Origin: a virus
Reading direction: 5' to 3' (one strand)
Virus record (IMG/VR): IMGVR_UViG_3300031721_000035
Coordinates: 1-27,574 of that record
Length of the DNA stretch: 27,574 bases
Each line of letters opens with the position of its first letter. Position 1 is the stretch's first letter. Below the pieces are notes generated by a model. That model had not been told where the DNA came from and made no database searches. It saw only the letters and a list, made by a program, of their open reading frames with translations. Shown piece after piece: positions 3,457 to 26,799 of this stretch. The position numbers and the translations under genes were made by a program.

Positions 3457-4077
3457 ATGATGGCAACACACACAAATAAAGACTCACCTGCTATAATGCA
3501 TCTTATAAAAGAAGGTACTATAGGTGCTGAAATTGGTATTTGGATGGGTAACACTTCAACACAATTTCTTAAGAAAGGTCTTAAAAAGTTTTATATGGTT
3601 GACGCATATTCAATAGAACCGTATACAAATTCAACAGAAGTAGACTTTCAAATCTATCTTGCAAAATATGCAGCCATTACTGGTGAAATTGCACCAGCTG
3701 GTTTTCAAAGATACTATGATAGAGTTTATGAAGAAATAAAATCTAGATTTGAAAGCATTAAAGAAACTGTAATATGCCGTACAACATCAGACAAATGGTT
3801 TGAGCAATTTGATGGTGAAAAATTAGATTGGATTTACGTTGATGGCGATCATTCATACGAAGGTTGTTTAAAAGATTTAAATAATGCAATGAAAATAGTT
3901 AAACCTGGTGGAAAAATATTAGGTGATGATTATGGTTGGCCAAAAAAAGATGATGACGACGAATCTATATATCATAAGCCTGGTGTAACAAAGGCAGTAG
4001 ATACATTTATAAATAATAATAACTTAACCAAGCACATATTTAGACATGGGCAAACACAATTCGAGATTCGAGTATGA
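3457..4077 (+). CDS. Class I SAM-dependent methyltransferase (Methyltransf_24-like)
   Basis: Motif I is seen near residues 23-34 (GAEIGIWMGNTS), the Gly-rich loop that binds S-adenosylmethionine. The acidic strand-end DAYS follows, and the strand-4 signature WIYVDGDHSYEGCLKDL lies near residues 128-144, diagnostic for this small-molecule/sugar methyltransferase group. GGKILGDDYGWP follows and may coordinate metal. Within the glycan island a sugar O-methyltransferase is the simplest role. Its end overlaps the RuBisCO-like gene by ATGA, so the two are probably co-translated. Confidence 0.75.
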   Translation: MMATHTNKDSPAIMHLIKEGTIGAEIGIWMGNTSTQFLKKGLKKFYMVDAYSIEPYTNSTEVDFQIYLAKYAAITGEIAPAGFQRYYDRVYEEIKSRFESIKETVICRTTSDKWFEQFDGEKLDWIYVDGDHSYEGCLKDLNNAMKIVKPGGKILGDDYGWPKKDDDDESIYHKPGVTKAVDTFINNNNLTKHIFRHGQTQFEIRV

Positions 4078-5162
4078 AAAGATACACAGTTACTTACGAA
4101 GTAGACGGTCCTGATATTCCAAAAATAGCTCATGAAATTGCTATTGGTCAGAGCATAGGAAATCCTAACATTAGATCTGAAATAGAAAATGCTACAAACG
4201 TAAAAGAATATATAGCGCAGGTTGTAAGTGTAAAGAAAAATATTGTTACTATAGAGTTTCCTCTTGGTGCATTTGATTGGCCAAATATTAATCAATTGAT
4301 GTGCATTATAATGGGCGGTCATACCGATATTTTAGGTATTGACAAATGCAGAGTAATAGATATAAAAGTTCCAATTAAACATACACCACCTGTTTTAGGT
4401 ATGAGTGGATGGAAGAAAAGATTAGGTGCAGAAAAAAGACCATTATTTGGTGCTATTGTTAAACCTAAGTCTGGTCTAAATAAAGAACAACTATTATCTT
4501 TAGTTAAAGACATGATATACGGTGGCGCTGACTTTATTAAAGAAGATGAGATTATGGCAAATAATTCTTATTTACCTTTGGAAACAAGAGTTGAAGCCAT
4601 TGAGCACTTAAAACAAATATCTGGTTGGAAAGGCTTTTATGCATATTGCATTAATGCAGATCCTTTAGAATTAGTAGATAACTGTGCTGCAGTAAAGATG
4701 GGTAGTAACAGTGAAGCTTCGGTCGGTGGAGTACACATTAATTTTTGGTCAGGTTTAGGTGCTTATACAACTGCAAGAAAATACAATTTAGCAACACACT
4801 ATCAAAGATCAGGTATACGTATTTTAACTGATCCAGGTAATAGGTATTCGTTATCTTGGCCAGTTCTAGTAAAACTTGGCTGCATGGCAGGCATTGATAG
4901 TATGCATGTTGGTATGCTAGGCGGATATTATCCGGAAGGCGAAAGTGAAACAGAAACACTTGAAGCAATTAAGATCTGTGCTAAGTATAATGTTATACCG
5001 TCATTAAGTTGTGGTATGAATCCTGTACTTGCAAGAGAAATTAAAGAACGAATTGGAAATAATTGGATGGGATCAGTCGGTGGCTGGTTACATACAGGTG
5101 ACGGTACTAAAGGTAACACTTTGTACCATAAAGTGAAAGAAATGAGTGAGGCGATGTTATAA
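4074..5162 (+). CDS. RuBisCO large-subunit-like protein (RLP, form IV-type)
   Basis: The full-length fold of the RuBisCO large chain is recognisable: an N-terminal domain (MKRYTVTYEV, IEFPLGAFDW, DIKVP) and a TIM-barrel domain starting at EKRPLFGAIVKPKSGL. Equivalents of catalytic Lys175/177 (K130, K132), of the carbamylated Lys201 with Asp203 and Glu204 (K156, D158, E159 in DFIKEDE), of His327 (H278 in DSMHVG), of Ser379 (S312 in LSCGMNP) and the Gly403/404 phosphate loop (SVGGWLH) are present. The loop-6 Lys334 equivalent is missing (GGYYPEG), and His294 appears to be Gln (THYQRSG). Loss of these makes CO2 fixation unlikely. Known RLPs act as enolases, isomerases or decarboxylases on sugar-phosphate-like substrates. 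At 362 residues it is shorter than usual (about 400-470). It sits between a methyltransferase and a sugar nucleotidyltransferase. Confidence 0.85.
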   Translation: MKRYTVTYEVDGPDIPKIAHEIAIGQSIGNPNIRSEIENATNVKEYIAQVVSVKKNIVTIEFPLGAFDWPNINQLMCIIMGGHTDILGIDKCRVIDIKVPIKHTPPVLGMSGWKKRLGAEKRPLFGAIVKPKSGLNKEQLLSLVKDMIYGGADFIKEDEIMANNSYLPLETRVEAIEHLKQISGWKGFYAYCINADPLELVDNCAAVKMGSNSEASVGGVHINFWSGLGAYTTARKYNLATHYQRSGIRILTDPGNRYSLSWPVLVKLGCMAGIDSMHVGMLGGYYPEGESETETLEAIKICAKYNVIPSLSCGMNPVLAREIKERIGNNWMGSVGGWLHTGDGTKGNTLYHKVKEMSEAML

Positions 5163-14146: not shown

Positions 14147-14296
14147 ATGTGGCACAAAGTAATAGAACACACAGATTTAATGACTCGCAATATTGAAAGG
14201 AAGAAAATTATGACACCGAATCCACACTATGTTAATATGTTAATTAATCTTAGTATTCTTGGTATGTTAATTTACGTAGCAATACAAGTATCTTAA
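14147..14296 (+). CDS. Small single-pass membrane protein (49 aa)
   Basis: ATG behind the AGGAGA of repeat copy 2. Polar N-terminus (MWHKVIEHTDLMTRNIERKK) and a C-terminal membrane segment (VNMLINLSILGMLIYVAIQV). It overlaps the desaturase by TAATG and may be a small partner of that membrane enzyme, which is inference from position only. Confidence 0.65.
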   Translation: MWHKVIEHTDLMTRNIERKKIMTPNPHYVNMLINLSILGMLIYVAIQVS

Positions 14297-14844
14297 TGAT
14301 TTTTGTTTATATTTACATTATATATTTTATATTAGCAACTATTGGTGCAACTCTAGGGCTGCATCGTTATTGGGCGCACAACAAAGGAAAAAGATCAGCA
14401 TGGTTTGAATGGTTGTCTTTGACTTGTGCATTATGTATTGGTGTATATAAACCATTAGGCTGGATTGGAATACACAGATTACATCACAAATATTCTGATA
14501 CATCTAATGATCCGCATTCTTCTAAATATCAAGGAGCTTGGAACGTTCTTTTATCACAATGGAATAAACCTGTGCCTTTATCATTAATAAGAGATATGAT
14601 GAAAAATAAAAGAATTAAATTCTTTCAACGATATGGTAAGTATTTAATATGGCCAATAATAATTTTTTCACCAATTACTATACTGCTAGGATACGCAGGA
14701 ATAGGAATACTAAATCATTTTGGACATGAAGAAGGTAAACCGATGAATAGATGGTTTATAAACATACTTGCGCCGTTTGAAGGAAATCACAGAGATCATC
14801 ACAAACCCAGGTCTACCAATATCTTTTATAGATTAAAATTATAG
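14296..14844 (+). CDS. Membrane fatty acid desaturase, short form
   Basis: All three histidine boxes of the acyl-CoA/acyl-lipid desaturase family are present: HRYWAH (23-28), HRLHH (60-64) and HRDHH (165-169), with an additional N-H-x-x-G-H at 140-144. They hold the di-iron centre that uses O2 to place a double bond. Hydrophobic segments are at about 1-20, 40-58, 117-140. At 182 residues it is far shorter than bacterial enzymes (about 260-380), yet the order and spacing of the boxes are right. Desaturases are known in T4-like marine phages and could change membrane fluidity or feed lipid A/lipoprotein acylation. Confidence 0.8.
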   Translation: MIFVYIYIIYFILATIGATLGLHRYWAHNKGKRSAWFEWLSLTCALCIGVYKPLGWIGIHRLHHKYSDTSNDPHSSKYQGAWNVLLSQWNKPVPLSLIRDMMKNKRIKFFQRYGKYLIWPIIIFSPITILLGYAGIGILNHFGHEEGKPMNRWFINILAPFEGNHRDHHKPRSTNIFYRLKL

Positions 14845-15392
14845 TGATTATAACAGATCTAACACAAGATGATACTCACTTTGATAGCTTTCTAAAATTA
14901 GTAAAAGAAGCTTATACTACTGATTTTACACTAAGTAATAATTATAAAAATATATTAGATACTTATAATAATTACAAAGCTTTTATATTATTGTTAGACG
15001 ACAATGAACCTGTAGCGTTTTGTGGTTTACAACATTTTGATACCAATAGTATAAGAACTTATTCTAGGTATTACCTATCACGTAAGTATAGATTTTATAA
15101 TAATACGTTCTTACATACAAGTAAATATATTATGCCTTGGTCAATACAATATGCAGAAGATAACAATTATTCTTATCTTTTTACATCATTTCAATCTAAC
15201 TTAAAAAGAAAAAGAATTGCAAATGTGTTGTGTGATCACGCTAATAAATATACTAGTAAAGACTGGGTAGTACTTGACAATTTGCACAACACATGTAAAA
15301 ACAATATTGATAAACCGCAGTGTTGGCAGTATATAATAAGATGCACGTTAAAAGGAGACGGTGAATGGAATTTAATATATCAACAACATTAA
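14844..15392 (+). CDS. GNAT-like acetyltransferase, tentative
   Basis: Starts with GTG inside the upstream TAG (TAGTG). The N-terminus MIITDLTQDDTHFDSFLKLVKEAY and the strand pair FILLLDDNEPVAFCGLQHFD look like the first strand-helix and beta-2/3 hairpin of a GNAT fold; the acetyl-CoA loop is not clearly visible. It sits between the desaturase and the oxygenase run. Overlaps the next gene by 28 bp. Function tentative. Confidence 0.45.
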   Translation: MIITDLTQDDTHFDSFLKLVKEAYTTDFTLSNNYKNILDTYNNYKAFILLLDDNEPVAFCGLQHFDTNSIRTYSRYYLSRKYRFYNNTFLHTSKYIMPWSIQYAEDNNYSYLFTSFQSNLKRKRIANVLCDHANKYTSKDWVVLDNLHNTCKNNIDKPQCWQYIIRCTLKGDGEWNLIYQQH

Positions 15393-16069
15393 ATAATAAT
15401 ACGATAAACGATCTATCAAATGGTAAGATTGATTTGTGTATTTTAAGTGATGTTGATAAAGATACAGTTAAACAGTTTGGAGAGTTGCTAGAACAAGATC
15501 TGACTGGAATGAAAGAAATTACTGTAGGTAACGACGACATAAAGTTTAACTTACAGAAAATTGAAATGGGTTGGCATAGTGATGGTTCTCATTTAAATGT
15601 TACACCTAAGTTTGGTGGACTATATGGCGTAGAAATAGAAGAAGGATCAAGTCCTACATATTTCTGTAATATGAAAAGTGTATGGAAAGATCTACCATTA
15701 TCTCTTAAAGAAAAAATAAAGAATGAAAGTGAAGTAACATTTTCAGTACAAAACTATTACGATAAAGCAGTATGGCCATTCCTTAATTTCGACTCAGAAA
15801 AACAAGAGGAAACGTATTTAAGGTTTGCGAAAGCGAAAAAAAGTCTGTATCATAACGACGAGTTTGGTGAGTATCTTTTTTATAGTCCTTTCTATTCACC
15901 TGTTGAATATTTAGATAACGACATATTCCAAGAAAAACACATACATACTCACCATTGGAAAGATAGAGATCTTGTTGTGTGGAATAACTATACAACATCG
16001 CATAAAAGAGATGACACACCACAAGATATCACAAGAAGACTTGTACGATATGCAATTAACGCACATTAA
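15365..16069 (+). CDS. TauD/TfdA-type 2-oxoglutarate Fe(II) dioxygenase
   Basis: The iron triad is clear: H71-x-D73 in MGWHSDGSHLN and H213 in YTTSHKRDD, with R225 (RRLVRYAI) to hold the 2-oxoglutarate carboxylate. Length 234 is a little short of the usual 270-300. The reaction is hydroxylation or oxidative cleavage with 2-oxoglutarate and O2; the substrate is unknown. First of four adjacent oxygenase-like genes, each overlapping the next, so made together. Confidence 0.8.
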   Translation: MEFNISTTLNNNTINDLSNGKIDLCILSDVDKDTVKQFGELLEQDLTGMKEITVGNDDIKFNLQKIEMGWHSDGSHLNVTPKFGGLYGVEIEEGSSPTYFCNMKSVWKDLPLSLKEKIKNESEVTFSVQNYYDKAVWPFLNFDSEKQEETYLRFAKAKKSLYHNDEFGEYLFYSPFYSPVEYLDNDIFQEKHIHTHHWKDRDLVVWNNYTTSHKRDDTPQDITRRLVRYAINAH

Positions 16070-20041: not shown

Positions 20042-20105
20042 ATGGAGAAAAAAATTCCTGAAAGACAAATGGGAAAGGTTTAAAGATGCACTACCCACTG
20101 AGTGA
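20042..20105 (+). pseudogene. Tiny gene split by a +1 shift in an A7 run
   Basis: From ATG 20042 the frame reads MEKK, then meets seven A residues (20048-20054). Removing one A joins it to an open frame ending at TGA 20103: MEKK + FLKDKWERFKDALPTE, a natural-looking 20-residue peptide. As written, the start frame instead ends at TAA 20081 (IPERQMGKV). Either a real mutation, a sequencing or assembly indel, or slippage on the A-run. It overlaps the start of the next gene by 20 bp. Confidence 0.4.
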
Positions 20106-20421
20106 AGAACTTACAGAAAGCCTAAGACAAGACGTAATACGAGCGTTACAGAATGTTTTTGATCCTGAGATGCCAAGTGTAAGTGTATTTGACTTGGGAT
20201 TAATATATAAAATTATAGTAACAGAAGACGGAGCAGTCTATTGTGAGCATACACTTACAAGTATGATGTGTCCTTTTGCTGATGAGATATGTGCCAACGT
20301 TGAAAATGCAATTACAACCACACCAGGTGTAACATTCTGCAAAAGAGAATTGGTATTTGATCCTGCATTTACAATGACAATGGTTCCAGAAGAAACTAAA
20401 CTTATTATGGGTTGGTATTAA
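20086..20421 (+). CDS. MIP18/PaaD-like Fe-S cluster assembly protein (DUF59)
   Basis: The DUF59 signature is clear: FDPEMPSVSVFDLGLIYKI (residues 25-43), then EHTLTSMMCPFADEIC with the conserved Cys (about 59), and a late FDPAFTMTMVPEE. In bacteria the SufT/PaaD family helps mature Fe-S proteins. In a phage it may support host or phage Fe-S enzymes under iron-poor marine conditions. ATG follows GGGAAAGG at a good distance. At 111 residues it is normal for the family. Confidence 0.8.
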   Translation: MHYPLSEELTESLRQDVIRALQNVFDPEMPSVSVFDLGLIYKIIVTEDGAVYCEHTLTSMMCPFADEICANVENAITTTPGVTFCKRELVFDPAFTMTMVPEETKLIMGWY

Positions 20422-24520: not shown

Positions 24521-24625
24521 ATGATAGAACGATTTGTTGAGTTCTTAAGAAAGAAATTAGGAATTAAAGAACCAAAGGAAGTAGGATATCTAGGCAGAGA
24601 CTTAGCTAAACATAAAAACAAGTAA
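24521..24625 (+). CDS. Tiny basic peptide (34 aa)
   Basis: ATG behind AAGGATGTAAC. Amphipathic helix IERFVEFLRKKLGI, then a Gly/Lys-rich tail. Last ORF before the 24649 terminator. Its N-terminal amphipathic helix could associate with a membrane. Confidence 0.55.
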   Translation: MIERFVEFLRKKLGIKEPKEVGYLGRDLAKHKNK

Positions 24626-24648: not shown

Positions 24649-24672
24649 AAAGCGTCTTTGGACGCTTTTTTT
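24649..24672 (+). terminator. Rho-independent terminator
   Basis: AAAGCGTC, TTTG loop, GACGCTTT, then TTTT. Perfect 8-bp stem. It ends the DUF932-to-34-aa transcript directly before the next promoter. Confidence 0.9.
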
Positions 24673-24674
24673 AG

Positions 24675-24703
24675 TGTACAAACTTGTATAAATAGTGTAT
24701 AAT
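24675..24703 (+). promoter_or_regulatory. Overlapping sigma70-type and T4-late promoter
   Basis: TGTACA (24675-24680), 17-bp spacer, TATAAT (24698-24703) as in the series. Within the spacer a T4-late TATAAATA sits at 24687-24694. The two could act at different times on the head-protein genes behind them. Confidence 0.65.
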
Positions 24704-24722: not shown

Positions 24723-25571
24723 ATGAGAAGATTTAAAAGTTTTATTAGGGAGATGGCAGCTGTGAGCATAAACGATTTGGACATGACCTTTATTAAAAGA
24801 GCCGAAAGAGTTACTTCTTTTAATATAAGCTCTACAGATTTTCAATCAAAAAAAAATAAAGCTGAAATACAACATCTTATTAAGAAACATTTCTTTCCAG
24901 ATTTTGATTTAGATAAGACAATTAAAGGACAACCAACTGCTGCTGCACTTAATGATCTAATTACTGATTTACAAAGTGAAAGCTTTTCTATGTATAATAA
25001 ATTGCATAATTATCCTTTAAATGGAATTGGTCCGGCTGAAGCAACATTATATTTTTTGTGTGATGAGGCGCAATTAGGAGGAGGTAGCTCTGCAGGTGTT
25101 GATTTAAAGATTGGTTCTACAGATTATGAAATAAAAGCAGTATTGTCAAACGCGCAAAAAACACATGTAAGTGGATTTAAGCTTGGTGCTGGAACTGATT
25201 TTAAAAAAATTATAACAGAATTAATGAGCATGAAAGAATTATATGGAATAAAAACTACTGGTAAAGGTAAAGAAGAAATTCCTTCGAAGTCTGGCATAGA
25301 AGTGTTTAGACAAAAAGATCCTGCAAAAATGGCTGCACTAGATAAATTATTTCAGAGAGAATGTGCAGACTATTTTGGAAATAAACAAGTAATTTTCATG
25401 GCTAATAACGCTAGTCAAAAAATAGATCCTGAATTTCCAGATGCTGGAAAACAAAAAGTCTTATCAAAAGGTTCTGGTAAGTGCATATCAATACAAAAAG
25501 TAATTCCATCAAAATGTAAAATACAAGTTGTAACTCAAGGAATTATTAAACCAATAATAGCGTTAAAATAA
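24723..25571 (+). CDS. PD-(D/E)XK-like protein with capsid-targeting N-terminus
   Basis: ATG with AAAGGGG ahead. MRRFKSFIRE at residues 1-10 matches the T4 capsid-targeting sequence (compare MKTYQEFIAE of the T4 internal proteins), with cleavage expected after Glu10. A nuclease-like motif follows near 103-140: GPAEATLYF, then AGVDLKIGSTDYEIKAV, with E106, D127 and E136-x-K138 as candidate metal ligands. The C-terminal region is basic. This suggests a DNA-interacting protein packaged in the head. Both motif readings are mine and not confirmed by search. Similar genes precede DUF6267 in T4-like marine phages. Confidence 0.55.
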   Translation: MRRFKSFIREMAAVSINDLDMTFIKRAERVTSFNISSTDFQSKKNKAEIQHLIKKHFFPDFDLDKTIKGQPTAAALNDLITDLQSESFSMYNKLHNYPLNGIGPAEATLYFLCDEAQLGGGSSAGVDLKIGSTDYEIKAVLSNAQKTHVSGFKLGAGTDFKKIITELMSMKELYGIKTTGKGKEEIPSKSGIEVFRQKDPAKMAALDKLFQRECADYFGNKQVIFMANNASQKIDPEFPDAGKQKVLSKGSGKCISIQKVIPSKCKIQVVTQGIIKPIIALK

Positions 25572-25572
25572 A

Positions 25573-26799
25573 ATGAGATTTATAGAATTTATATCAGAAC
25601 AAAAAAACACTCATATGACTCATATCGAGGACAAGGTTCTGTACGGTGGAGTCAACGGAACAAGAGAAGCAATACTTGCTTTAAGATCTTTAAGAGATAT
25701 GGTAGCAGGTGTGCATGATGGAAATGTTAGCGTGAAATGGGATGGAGCACCTGCAGTATTTGCTGGTACAGATCCAAATGACGGTAAGTTTTTTGTAGCT
25801 AAAAAAGGAATATTCAATACAAATCCTAAAGTATACAAAACAAATGCAGATGTTGATGATGATACAAGTGGCGAACTTAATAAGAAATTAAAAGCAGCAT
25901 TGCAGTATTTGCCTGAACTTGGTATCAAAGGTGTAATACAAGGTGACTTCTTATTTAATTCAAACGAAGTTAAAACAAAAAAACTACAAGGTAAACAATA
26001 CGTAACTTTTCATCCTAACACTATTGTGTATGCTGTTCCAGCTGGAACTGAAGCTGCAAAGAAAGTTAAGGCTGCAAAGATCGGTGTTGTGTGGCATACA
26101 ACTTATATAGGTTCAACATTTGAATCAATGAAAGCGTCTTATGGCGTGGATATAAGTAAATTTGCATCTAGCACAAATGTTTGGTCTCAAGATGCAATGC
26201 TCAGAGATATGACTCAGTTCACAATGACTAAAAAAGACACTGATGAAGTGAACGGTCATTTAAGTAATTGTGGTAGAATATTCAATAAAATATCTAGTAC
26301 AACACTAAAAACACTTGAAAACGATCAGACTCTTGCTGGCTATATAGAAACATTTAATAATACTTATGTGAGAAAAGGCGAAATAGTTGGTAATACTAAA
26401 ACACATGTTGATAAACTCATATTACACATAAAACAAAAGTTTCAAAAAGAGATAAATAAAAGGAAAACCGAAAAAGGTAAAGGCGCACAACAAAAAAAAT
26501 TAGATGATGTATTACGATTCTTTTCACCACAAAATAAAATTAGTTTACAAATGATGTTTGATCTTCAGAAATCTATAGTTCTAGCGAAATTAAAAATTAT
26601 AAATATACTAAATAGGTTAAATAGCGCACAAACCTTTCTTAAGACTCGTGATGGTTATAAGGTAACGGGTCAAGAAGGTTATGTTGCTATTGACAAACTT
26701 GGTGGTGACGCTGTGAAAATTGTTGATCGTATGGAATTTTCATATGCCAACTTTTCACCAGAAATTATAAAAGGATGGGATAAGCCGGGGAGGAATTAA
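25573..26799 (+). CDS. DUF6267 protein, nucleotidyltransferase/ligase-like, with capsid-targeting N-terminus
   Basis: MRFIEFISE (residues 1-9) is a second T4-type targeting sequence, with cleavage expected after Glu9. Residues 12-66 match the DUF6267 family (THIEDKVLYGGVNGT, VSVKWDGAPAVFAGTDP). The K55-W-D-G58 is the K-x-DG nucleotidyl-attack motif of ATP-dependent ligases, followed by FVAKKGIF (motif III position), GVIQGDFLF (about 120-128), and near the end QEGYVAIDKLGGDAVKIVDR, resembling motifs IV and V. That is the fold of the DNA/RNA ligase core. The middle (280-330) is a Lys-rich helix. Cosubstrate and target are unknown. Confidence 0.75.
   Translation: MRFIEFISEQKNTHMTHIEDKVLYGGVNGTREAILALRSLRDMVAGVHDGNVSVKWDGAPAVFAGTDPNDGKFFVAKKGIFNTNPKVYKTNADVDDDTSGELNKKLKAALQYLPELGIKGVIQGDFLFNSNEVKTKKLQGKQYVTFHPNTIVYAVPAGTEAAKKVKAAKIGVVWHTTYIGSTFESMKASYGVDISKFASSTNVWSQDAMLRDMTQFTMTKKDTDEVNGHLSNCGRIFNKISSTTLKTLENDQTLAGYIETFNNTYVRKGEIVGNTKTHVDKLILHIKQKFQKEINKRKTEKGKGAQQKKLDDVLRFFSPQNKISLQMMFDLQKSIVLAKLKIINILNRLNSAQTFLKTRDGYKVTGQEGYVAIDKLGGDAVKIVDRMEFSYANFSPEIIKGWDKPGRN

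Follow-up and report, generated by a model that had tools for sequence, protein, structure and literature searches.

The window analysed here, the whole of a 27.6 kb virus fragment, comes from a T4-like marine phage, and its relatives include the Kyanoviridae phage C48C1 and the Methylophilales phage Melnitz. Three genes adjoin one another on the plus strand at its end. The first (24723..25571, +) encodes P1, a restriction-enzyme-like (PD-(D/E)XK) protein of 282 aa, and the second (25573..26799, +) encodes P2, a ligase-superfamily nucleotidyltransferase-like protein of 408 aa that belongs to the Pfam family DUF6267 (PF19782, E 7e-101). Both ORFs are present exactly where the earlier note had placed them, with the N-termini that it gave. 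P1 begins with MRRFKSFIRE (24723..24752, +), a strict match to the T4-type capsid-targeting sequence (CTS) with predicted cleavage after E10, and the DUF6267 protein begins with MRFIEFISE (25573..25599, +), with predicted cleavage after E9. The third gene, P3 (26800..27574, +), has a CTS-like N-terminus (MAVLKTFSDIMNE) and is cut by the window end. Upstream of P1, an intrinsic-terminator-like hairpin (24649..24668, +) would close the preceding transcription unit, two such hairpins being found in the region against 1.3 expected by shuffling. It is followed by a T4-type late-promoter box, TATAAATA (24687..24694, +), located 36 nt upstream of P1. A small ORF further upstream (24522-24625, +; MIERFVEFLRKKLGIKEPKE) has a CTS-like hydrophobic pattern and no Glu at the cleavage position.

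A longer contig (L085), in which P1 and the DUF6267 protein are 100% identical to the window copies, extends the cluster. In this contig P3 has 575 aa, begins directly after the DUF6267 stop and gives a weak PHROG match, to a PHROG of unknown function. P3 is followed with no gap by a cytidylyltransferase-like gene (MINSFKHYLIEEEKTVYFTFGRMNPPTTGH), which sits just past the window end and whose tagged N-terminus reads MINSFKHYLIEEE; after this gene comes MLKFSTYNELLENEG.... The earlier note was right about two tagged genes and missed that the set is larger, P3 and the NMNAT/cytidylyltransferase-like protein of L085 being tagged as well. Elsewhere in the window, a RuBisCO large-chain-like protein (4074-5162, +; Pfam RuBisCO_large E 9e-23, N-terminal domain E 2e-5) is encoded among sugar and methyl transferase genes; it has no match in 50,697 phage records, and its relatives are encoded in 165 stretches of viral contigs. 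The window also carries genes for a fatty-acid desaturase (14296-14844, +), a TauD-type dioxygenase (15365-16069, +) and iron-sulfur assembly (FeS_assembly_P; 20086-20421, +).

The CTS is defined here as an N-terminal tag of ~10 residues with an aromatic residue at tag position P7, a hydrophobic residue at P4, Ile or Leu at P3 and Glu at P1, and the window tags have all of these. The resemblance to the T4 pattern pointed out earlier extends to the strict form of the pattern for both proteins, far above chance. Start codons were compared with internal codons in eight phage genomes by means of a strict regular expression for the T4 tag; S-CREM2 and S-SCSM1 were scanned for it without the internal-codon comparison. 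The background rate of the strict pattern is ~0.0019 per codon, which for a stretch as long as the window predicts ~2e-4 adjacent pairs of tagged genes; at this figure a chance origin of both window tags was rejected. In C48C1 the strict tag occurs at 9 of 267 start positions, compared with 0.2% of internal ones (p 1e-8), and in Melnitz it is likewise enriched at start codons (p 1e-4). As a positive control in T4, a looser pattern recovers the internal proteins (IPs) and Alt. The loose pattern also gives a false positive, a UvsX-like ORF that is not among the S-CREM2 virion proteins.

Conservation within the tag follows the same pattern. Among 92 distinct DUF6267 N-termini, tag position P1 is Glu in 91 and P3 is Ile or Leu in 91, P4 is F/Y/L/I in 77 and P7 is Phe in 82 (some shifted by one), and positions P2, P5, P6 and P8 drift. 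The conserved positions are those marked by T4 targeting and cleavage experiments, in which residues 4, 7, 8 and 10 of IPIII are key (review PMC9026906), and this agreement supports capsid targeting. In the relatives of protein P1, F4 of the tag is nearly invariant and the Glu is kept in most. The tag is not universal, as the cyanophages checked have DUF6267 without it, having lost it or never had it. In P-HM2, P-SSM4 and S-PM2 the CTS-less proteins start at, or a few residues from, the predicted mature N-terminus (for example, MS-KNTHLEHLED in P-HM2 compared with ...FISE-QKNTHMTHIED in a tagged protein). The P-HM2 cytidylyltransferase similarly lacks a CTS and starts at its predicted mature N-terminus. 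Judged from these alignments, the tag is a removable module.

The signals for late expression and head processing accompany the tag. In all 21 loci (21/21) a TATAAATA box, the T4 late-promoter consensus, precedes the P1 start by 35-50 nt, with 0.013 expected per 90 nt; in the window it overlaps a sigma-70-like TGTACA-17-TATAAT. A gene for Peptidase_S77, the gp21-type prohead protease, is found in 15 of 16 related records, the exception being a 63 kb fragment; none is present in the 27.6 kb window, itself a fragment.

Published proteomes of more distantly related cyanophages place tagged proteins in the virion. This evidence covers tagged relatives of the cytidylyltransferase and one relative of the proteins encoded next to DUF6267, rather than P1 or DUF6267 themselves, and no DUF6267 protein was seen in the accessible parts of the virion data published for relatives. 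In S-SM1, the only strictly tagged ORF that the unbiased scan picked out in the genome is T4-GC190, a cytidylyltransferase, which was detected in virions of that phage (Sullivan et al. 2010, PMC3037559). Apart from short antisense ORFs, the strict pattern picks out three genes in S-CREM2, those for a SAM hydrolase (ORF6), a kinase-like protein (ORF14) and a cytidylyltransferase (ORF154). All three products are included in the 52 virion proteins of this phage (PMC10665884, Table 3). Measured against that table, the strict pattern gives 3/3 in the virion (hypergeometric p 0.015) and the loose pattern 5/8 (p 0.025). The S-SCSM1 NMNAT, a virion protein (PMC9602691), has the tagged N-terminus MKSFLQFLKE. 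The gene before it, SSCSM1_90, is labelled a virion protein in the record and is homologous to proteins encoded next to DUF6267 (E 4e-25 and 8e-8); its product is nuclease-like with an invariant D...S-L-K signature and has no clear tag, so the tag is not the only route into the virion. SSCSM1_30 of the same genome would carry a tag with a start 12 nt further upstream and is not labelled as virion, and two further strict tag matches occur in this genome. The proteome authors caution that CsCl-purified virions may carry contaminants. The capsid targeting proposed earlier is well supported by the conservation of single tag residues, by tagged as well as untagged orthologues, by the protease genes and virion proteomes of relatives and by the late promoter.

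The S-CREM2 ORFs 12-15 (OR473000, 7704-13331; loci L256-L264) encode adjoining virion proteins that form a second cargo cluster; the kinase-like ORF14 and ORF13 are tagged, and ORF12, annotated as 'CRISPR-Cas9 nuclease', has FASFMAE ~19 residues in. The annotated start of the C48C1 cytidyltransferase (L001 16619-16685, OQ984149) is too late, and a GTG 66 nt upstream adds the tag MIKNFSQYLLEEE.

By sequence, P1 matches nothing in Pfam or the PDB. The D...E-x-K patch that first drew attention to it is real: its active-site stretch D127 ... E136-I-K138 (25101..25136, +) consists of invariant columns, and E106, D127, E136 and K138 are invariant in 23 relatives at 32-85% identity. From this motif set P1 is probably a PD-(D/E)XK nuclease. 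In VIA fold alignments of the predicted structure, a good model (pLDDT 83), the top rows are type II restriction enzymes, with weak scores of Z at most 4.7; the matches to 3ndh (Z 4.7, 144 residues, 4.3 A) and MspI (Z 4.6) fall where common arrangements also score. With the model as query, Foldseek matched no PDB structure significantly, a PDB sequence search with the P1 profile returned nothing relevant, and matches in BFVD are confined to uncharacterised phage proteins. The nuclease-like character suggested earlier is supported by the motif set, which is complete and invariant, and by the weak fold matches to type II restriction enzymes. In two related loci (L043 508-2208 and L058 2074-3774), two adjoining ORFs are each P1-like, possibly through tandem duplication.

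The position directly before DUF6267 is a variable slot, occupied by different protein families in different phages, many of them with their own tag (MKRFRSFIRE, MLRFTTFLSE, MMRFTKFLTE, MQSFKKYLLE, MQGFKTFLSE). The strict tag is present on 53 of 134 slot ORFs of at least 200 aa, a sample that includes some unrelated ORFs (e.g. helicases) from phages without a slot gene. Profile comparison does not link P1 to another slot family, and a common nuclease nature of the slot is suggested only by the D...[S/E]-x-K signature and the shared position. A PADLOC search gave no defence-system match. In Vibrio phage Va1, a distant untagged P1 homologue follows a KTDG-stretch protein with an NMNAT/PPAT-like C-terminal half. 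Profile comparison detected no relationship between DUF6267 and the N-terminal half of Va1_166, so Va1 is a parallel in arrangement only. The same Va1 region (L003, 6478-10117) contains, with the P1 homologue and the KTDG/NMNAT-like two-domain protein, a tagged ORF of 61 aa (MSKRGFKKFLEEE), and Va1 has several other small tagged ORFs.

In the DUF6267 protein, the K-x-DG motif noted earlier proved to be an invariant family feature. Motif I (K55-W-D-G58; 25735..25746, +) contains the putative nucleotide-binding lysine, and K55, D57 and G58 are invariant in 30 close and 9 distant relatives. The 9 sequences 27-63% identical to the window protein keep Q123 and D125 as well as these three residues, and also E368, G369, V371, K382, V384, D385 and R386, which are invariant within motifs IV and V (E368-G-Y-V ... 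V-K382-I-V-D-R386; 26674..26730, +). The invariant residues follow the order of the ligase motifs I, III, IV and V, and they probably mark DUF6267 as a Lys-NMP nucleotidyltransferase in the ligase superfamily. The predicted structure is of moderate quality (pLDDT 69), with the last 60 residues unreliable. In this model, residues ~54-211 align in VIA with several RNA and DNA ligases at weak scores (Z 4.7-6.8), including TbREL1 (Z 6.8, 114 residues, 3.4 A), the Palaeococcus RNA ligase (Rnl), T4 Rnl2 and DNA ligases. In these alignments motif I falls on the catalytic Lys of the ligases or about one residue from it. The model thus supports a nucleotidyltransferase fold, short of proof, since the Z scores are in the range of common arrangements. 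No significant PDB match was found by Foldseek, and a PDB sequence search with the DUF6267 profile returned nothing relevant. The ligase-like assignment is supported by the complete, invariant motif set and by the weak fold matches to RNA and DNA ligases. DUF6267 and the cytidylyltransferase form one polypeptide in resequenced S-PM2 (591 aa) and are also fused in PHROG_455, which indicates a functional link between them. The cytidylyltransferase itself has a sub-threshold Pfam match only, and S-CBWM1 contains no match to the cytidylyltransferase query.

We consider the cluster to be, with a probability of roughly 70%, a cassette that a T4-like marine phage expresses late and whose products are internal head (cargo) proteins, delivered together with the DNA. 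Each protein of the cassette starts with a T4-type capsid-targeting sequence of 9-13 residues, which would dock it in the prohead core, and a gp21-type protease would then cut it after the Glu. The mature enzyme would stay in the head with the DNA and could be injected into the next host. The cargo would comprise the PD-(D/E)XK nuclease-like P1, the ligase-superfamily DUF6267 protein, P3 and the NMNAT/cytidylyltransferase-like protein seen in L085. In the most likely role, nucleic acid of the host or of a competitor would be attacked at once by the nuclease; in the first minutes of infection the ligase-like and NMNAT-like enzymes would act on nucleic-acid ends or NAD. We infer these enzymatic activities, and likewise a preference for DNA over RNA and a part in repair or takeover. 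Candidate roles after entry are host DNA breakdown, attack on competitors, and RNA/NAD repair.

The strongest alternative departs from this cargo cassette in substrate only, and its odds are somewhat below even: DUF6267 and its partners may act on RNA or NAD instead of DNA. DUF6267 would then be a nucleotidyltransferase of RNA-ligase or capping type, linked with an NMNAT-like enzyme and serving, for instance, the repair of tRNA or RNA or the recycling of NAD once the host has mounted a defence. Among the ligase matches, the RNA ligases TbREL1, T4 Rnl2 and Palaeococcus Rnl score best, yet the DNA ligases 2hiv, 8v1u and 3gde match at similar Z. Fusion with or adjacency to a CTP_transf/NMNAT-like protein points in the same direction, as does the NAD role of NMNAT proposed in the proteome papers; against this, the cytidylyltransferase Pfam match is sub-threshold. 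It is unlikely that the proteins are tagged and packaged but serve in assembly (in the prohead core, in DNA packaging or in genome end or nick processing) rather than in the next host. T4 IPIII does affect head assembly (PMC9026906), a nuclease and a ligase could process packaged DNA ends, and the late promoter would suit such a role; however, the polymorphic slot beside DUF6267 better fits host- or rival-directed cargo, and an assembly role for the NMNAT-like partner is not obvious. It is very improbable that the N-terminal peptide does not target the capsid and is instead an amphipathic helix serving oligomerisation or docking at another site, or a chance resemblance: the motif is short, UvsX and other non-virion proteins match its loose form, and SSCSM1_90 reaches virions without a clear tag, but the same tag with the same fixed positions recurs in unrelated families, CTS-less orthologues begin at the mature residue, and the strictly tagged genes, three of three in S-CREM2 and the sole one in S-SM1, encode virion proteins.

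Virion-carried enzymes are hard to recognise, since most are annotated as hypothetical. If the tag holds across these very common marine phages, it provides a sequence rule for predicting which proteins are carried into the cell. It would then also account for the NMNAT/cytidylyltransferase that has repeatedly been detected, and doubted, in cyanophage virions, and would open two unannotated enzyme families to direct functional tests. A nuclease packed beside the phage's own DNA raises the question of how it is kept silent in the head, for which sequence specificity, DNA modification, lack of free metal and inhibition by the tag before cleavage are candidates. As a tentative and rather doubtful generalisation of the cargo cassette, Kyanoviridae-type marine phages may possess a general T4-style cargo system with a core of swappable-slot nuclease, ligase-like and NMNAT-like enzymes, which would be injected with the genome and, ahead of any phage gene expression, target NAD and the nucleic acid of host or competitors, the nuclease being swapped in an arms race.

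CTS-directed cargo in T4 and virion NMNAT in cyanophages are already known. According to the searchable open literature, the new elements are the extension of the tag to Kyanoviridae-type phages, cross-validated against proteomes, the nuclease-like and ligase-like proteins that carry it, and the assignment of DUF6267 to the ligase superfamily. The virion cytidylyltransferase/NMNAT of the cyanophages S-SM1, S-CREM2 and S-SCSM1 is a tagged orthologue of the gene after P3 in L085; the corresponding proteome papers discuss NAD metabolism and leave carry-over contamination open, and their accessible passages do not mention a packaging signal. P1 shares the invariant E...D...E-x-K and a weak fold similarity with PD-(D/E)XK nucleases (type II: MspI, HincII, DpnI), and unlike type II restriction enzymes it has a capsid tag and no methylase partner was seen. 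DUF6267 has K-x-D-G, E-G-x-V and h-K-h-V in the order found in RNA/DNA ligases and capping enzymes (T4 Rnl2, TbREL1), and differs from them in a helical insert of ~150 residues before motif IV, in having no detectable sequence similarity and in its fusion with or adjacency to an NMNAT-like domain. The ejection proteins of SPN3US and phiKZ-type giant phages are also protease-processed head proteins that enter the host, and they are unrelated proteins of another phage lineage, as described in the accessible parts of the literature on them. Among the closest counterparts, IPI-IPIII and Alt of T4 share the 10-residue tag with aromatic residues at 4 and 7, Ile/Leu at 8 and Glu at 10, the L/I-x-E cleavage rule (PMC9026906), the late box and the gp21-type protease, found here in relatives. 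In T4 the cargo consists of the IPs and an ADP-ribosyltransferase, whereas here it is nuclease-, ligase- and NMNAT-like, and four tagged genes stand in a row.
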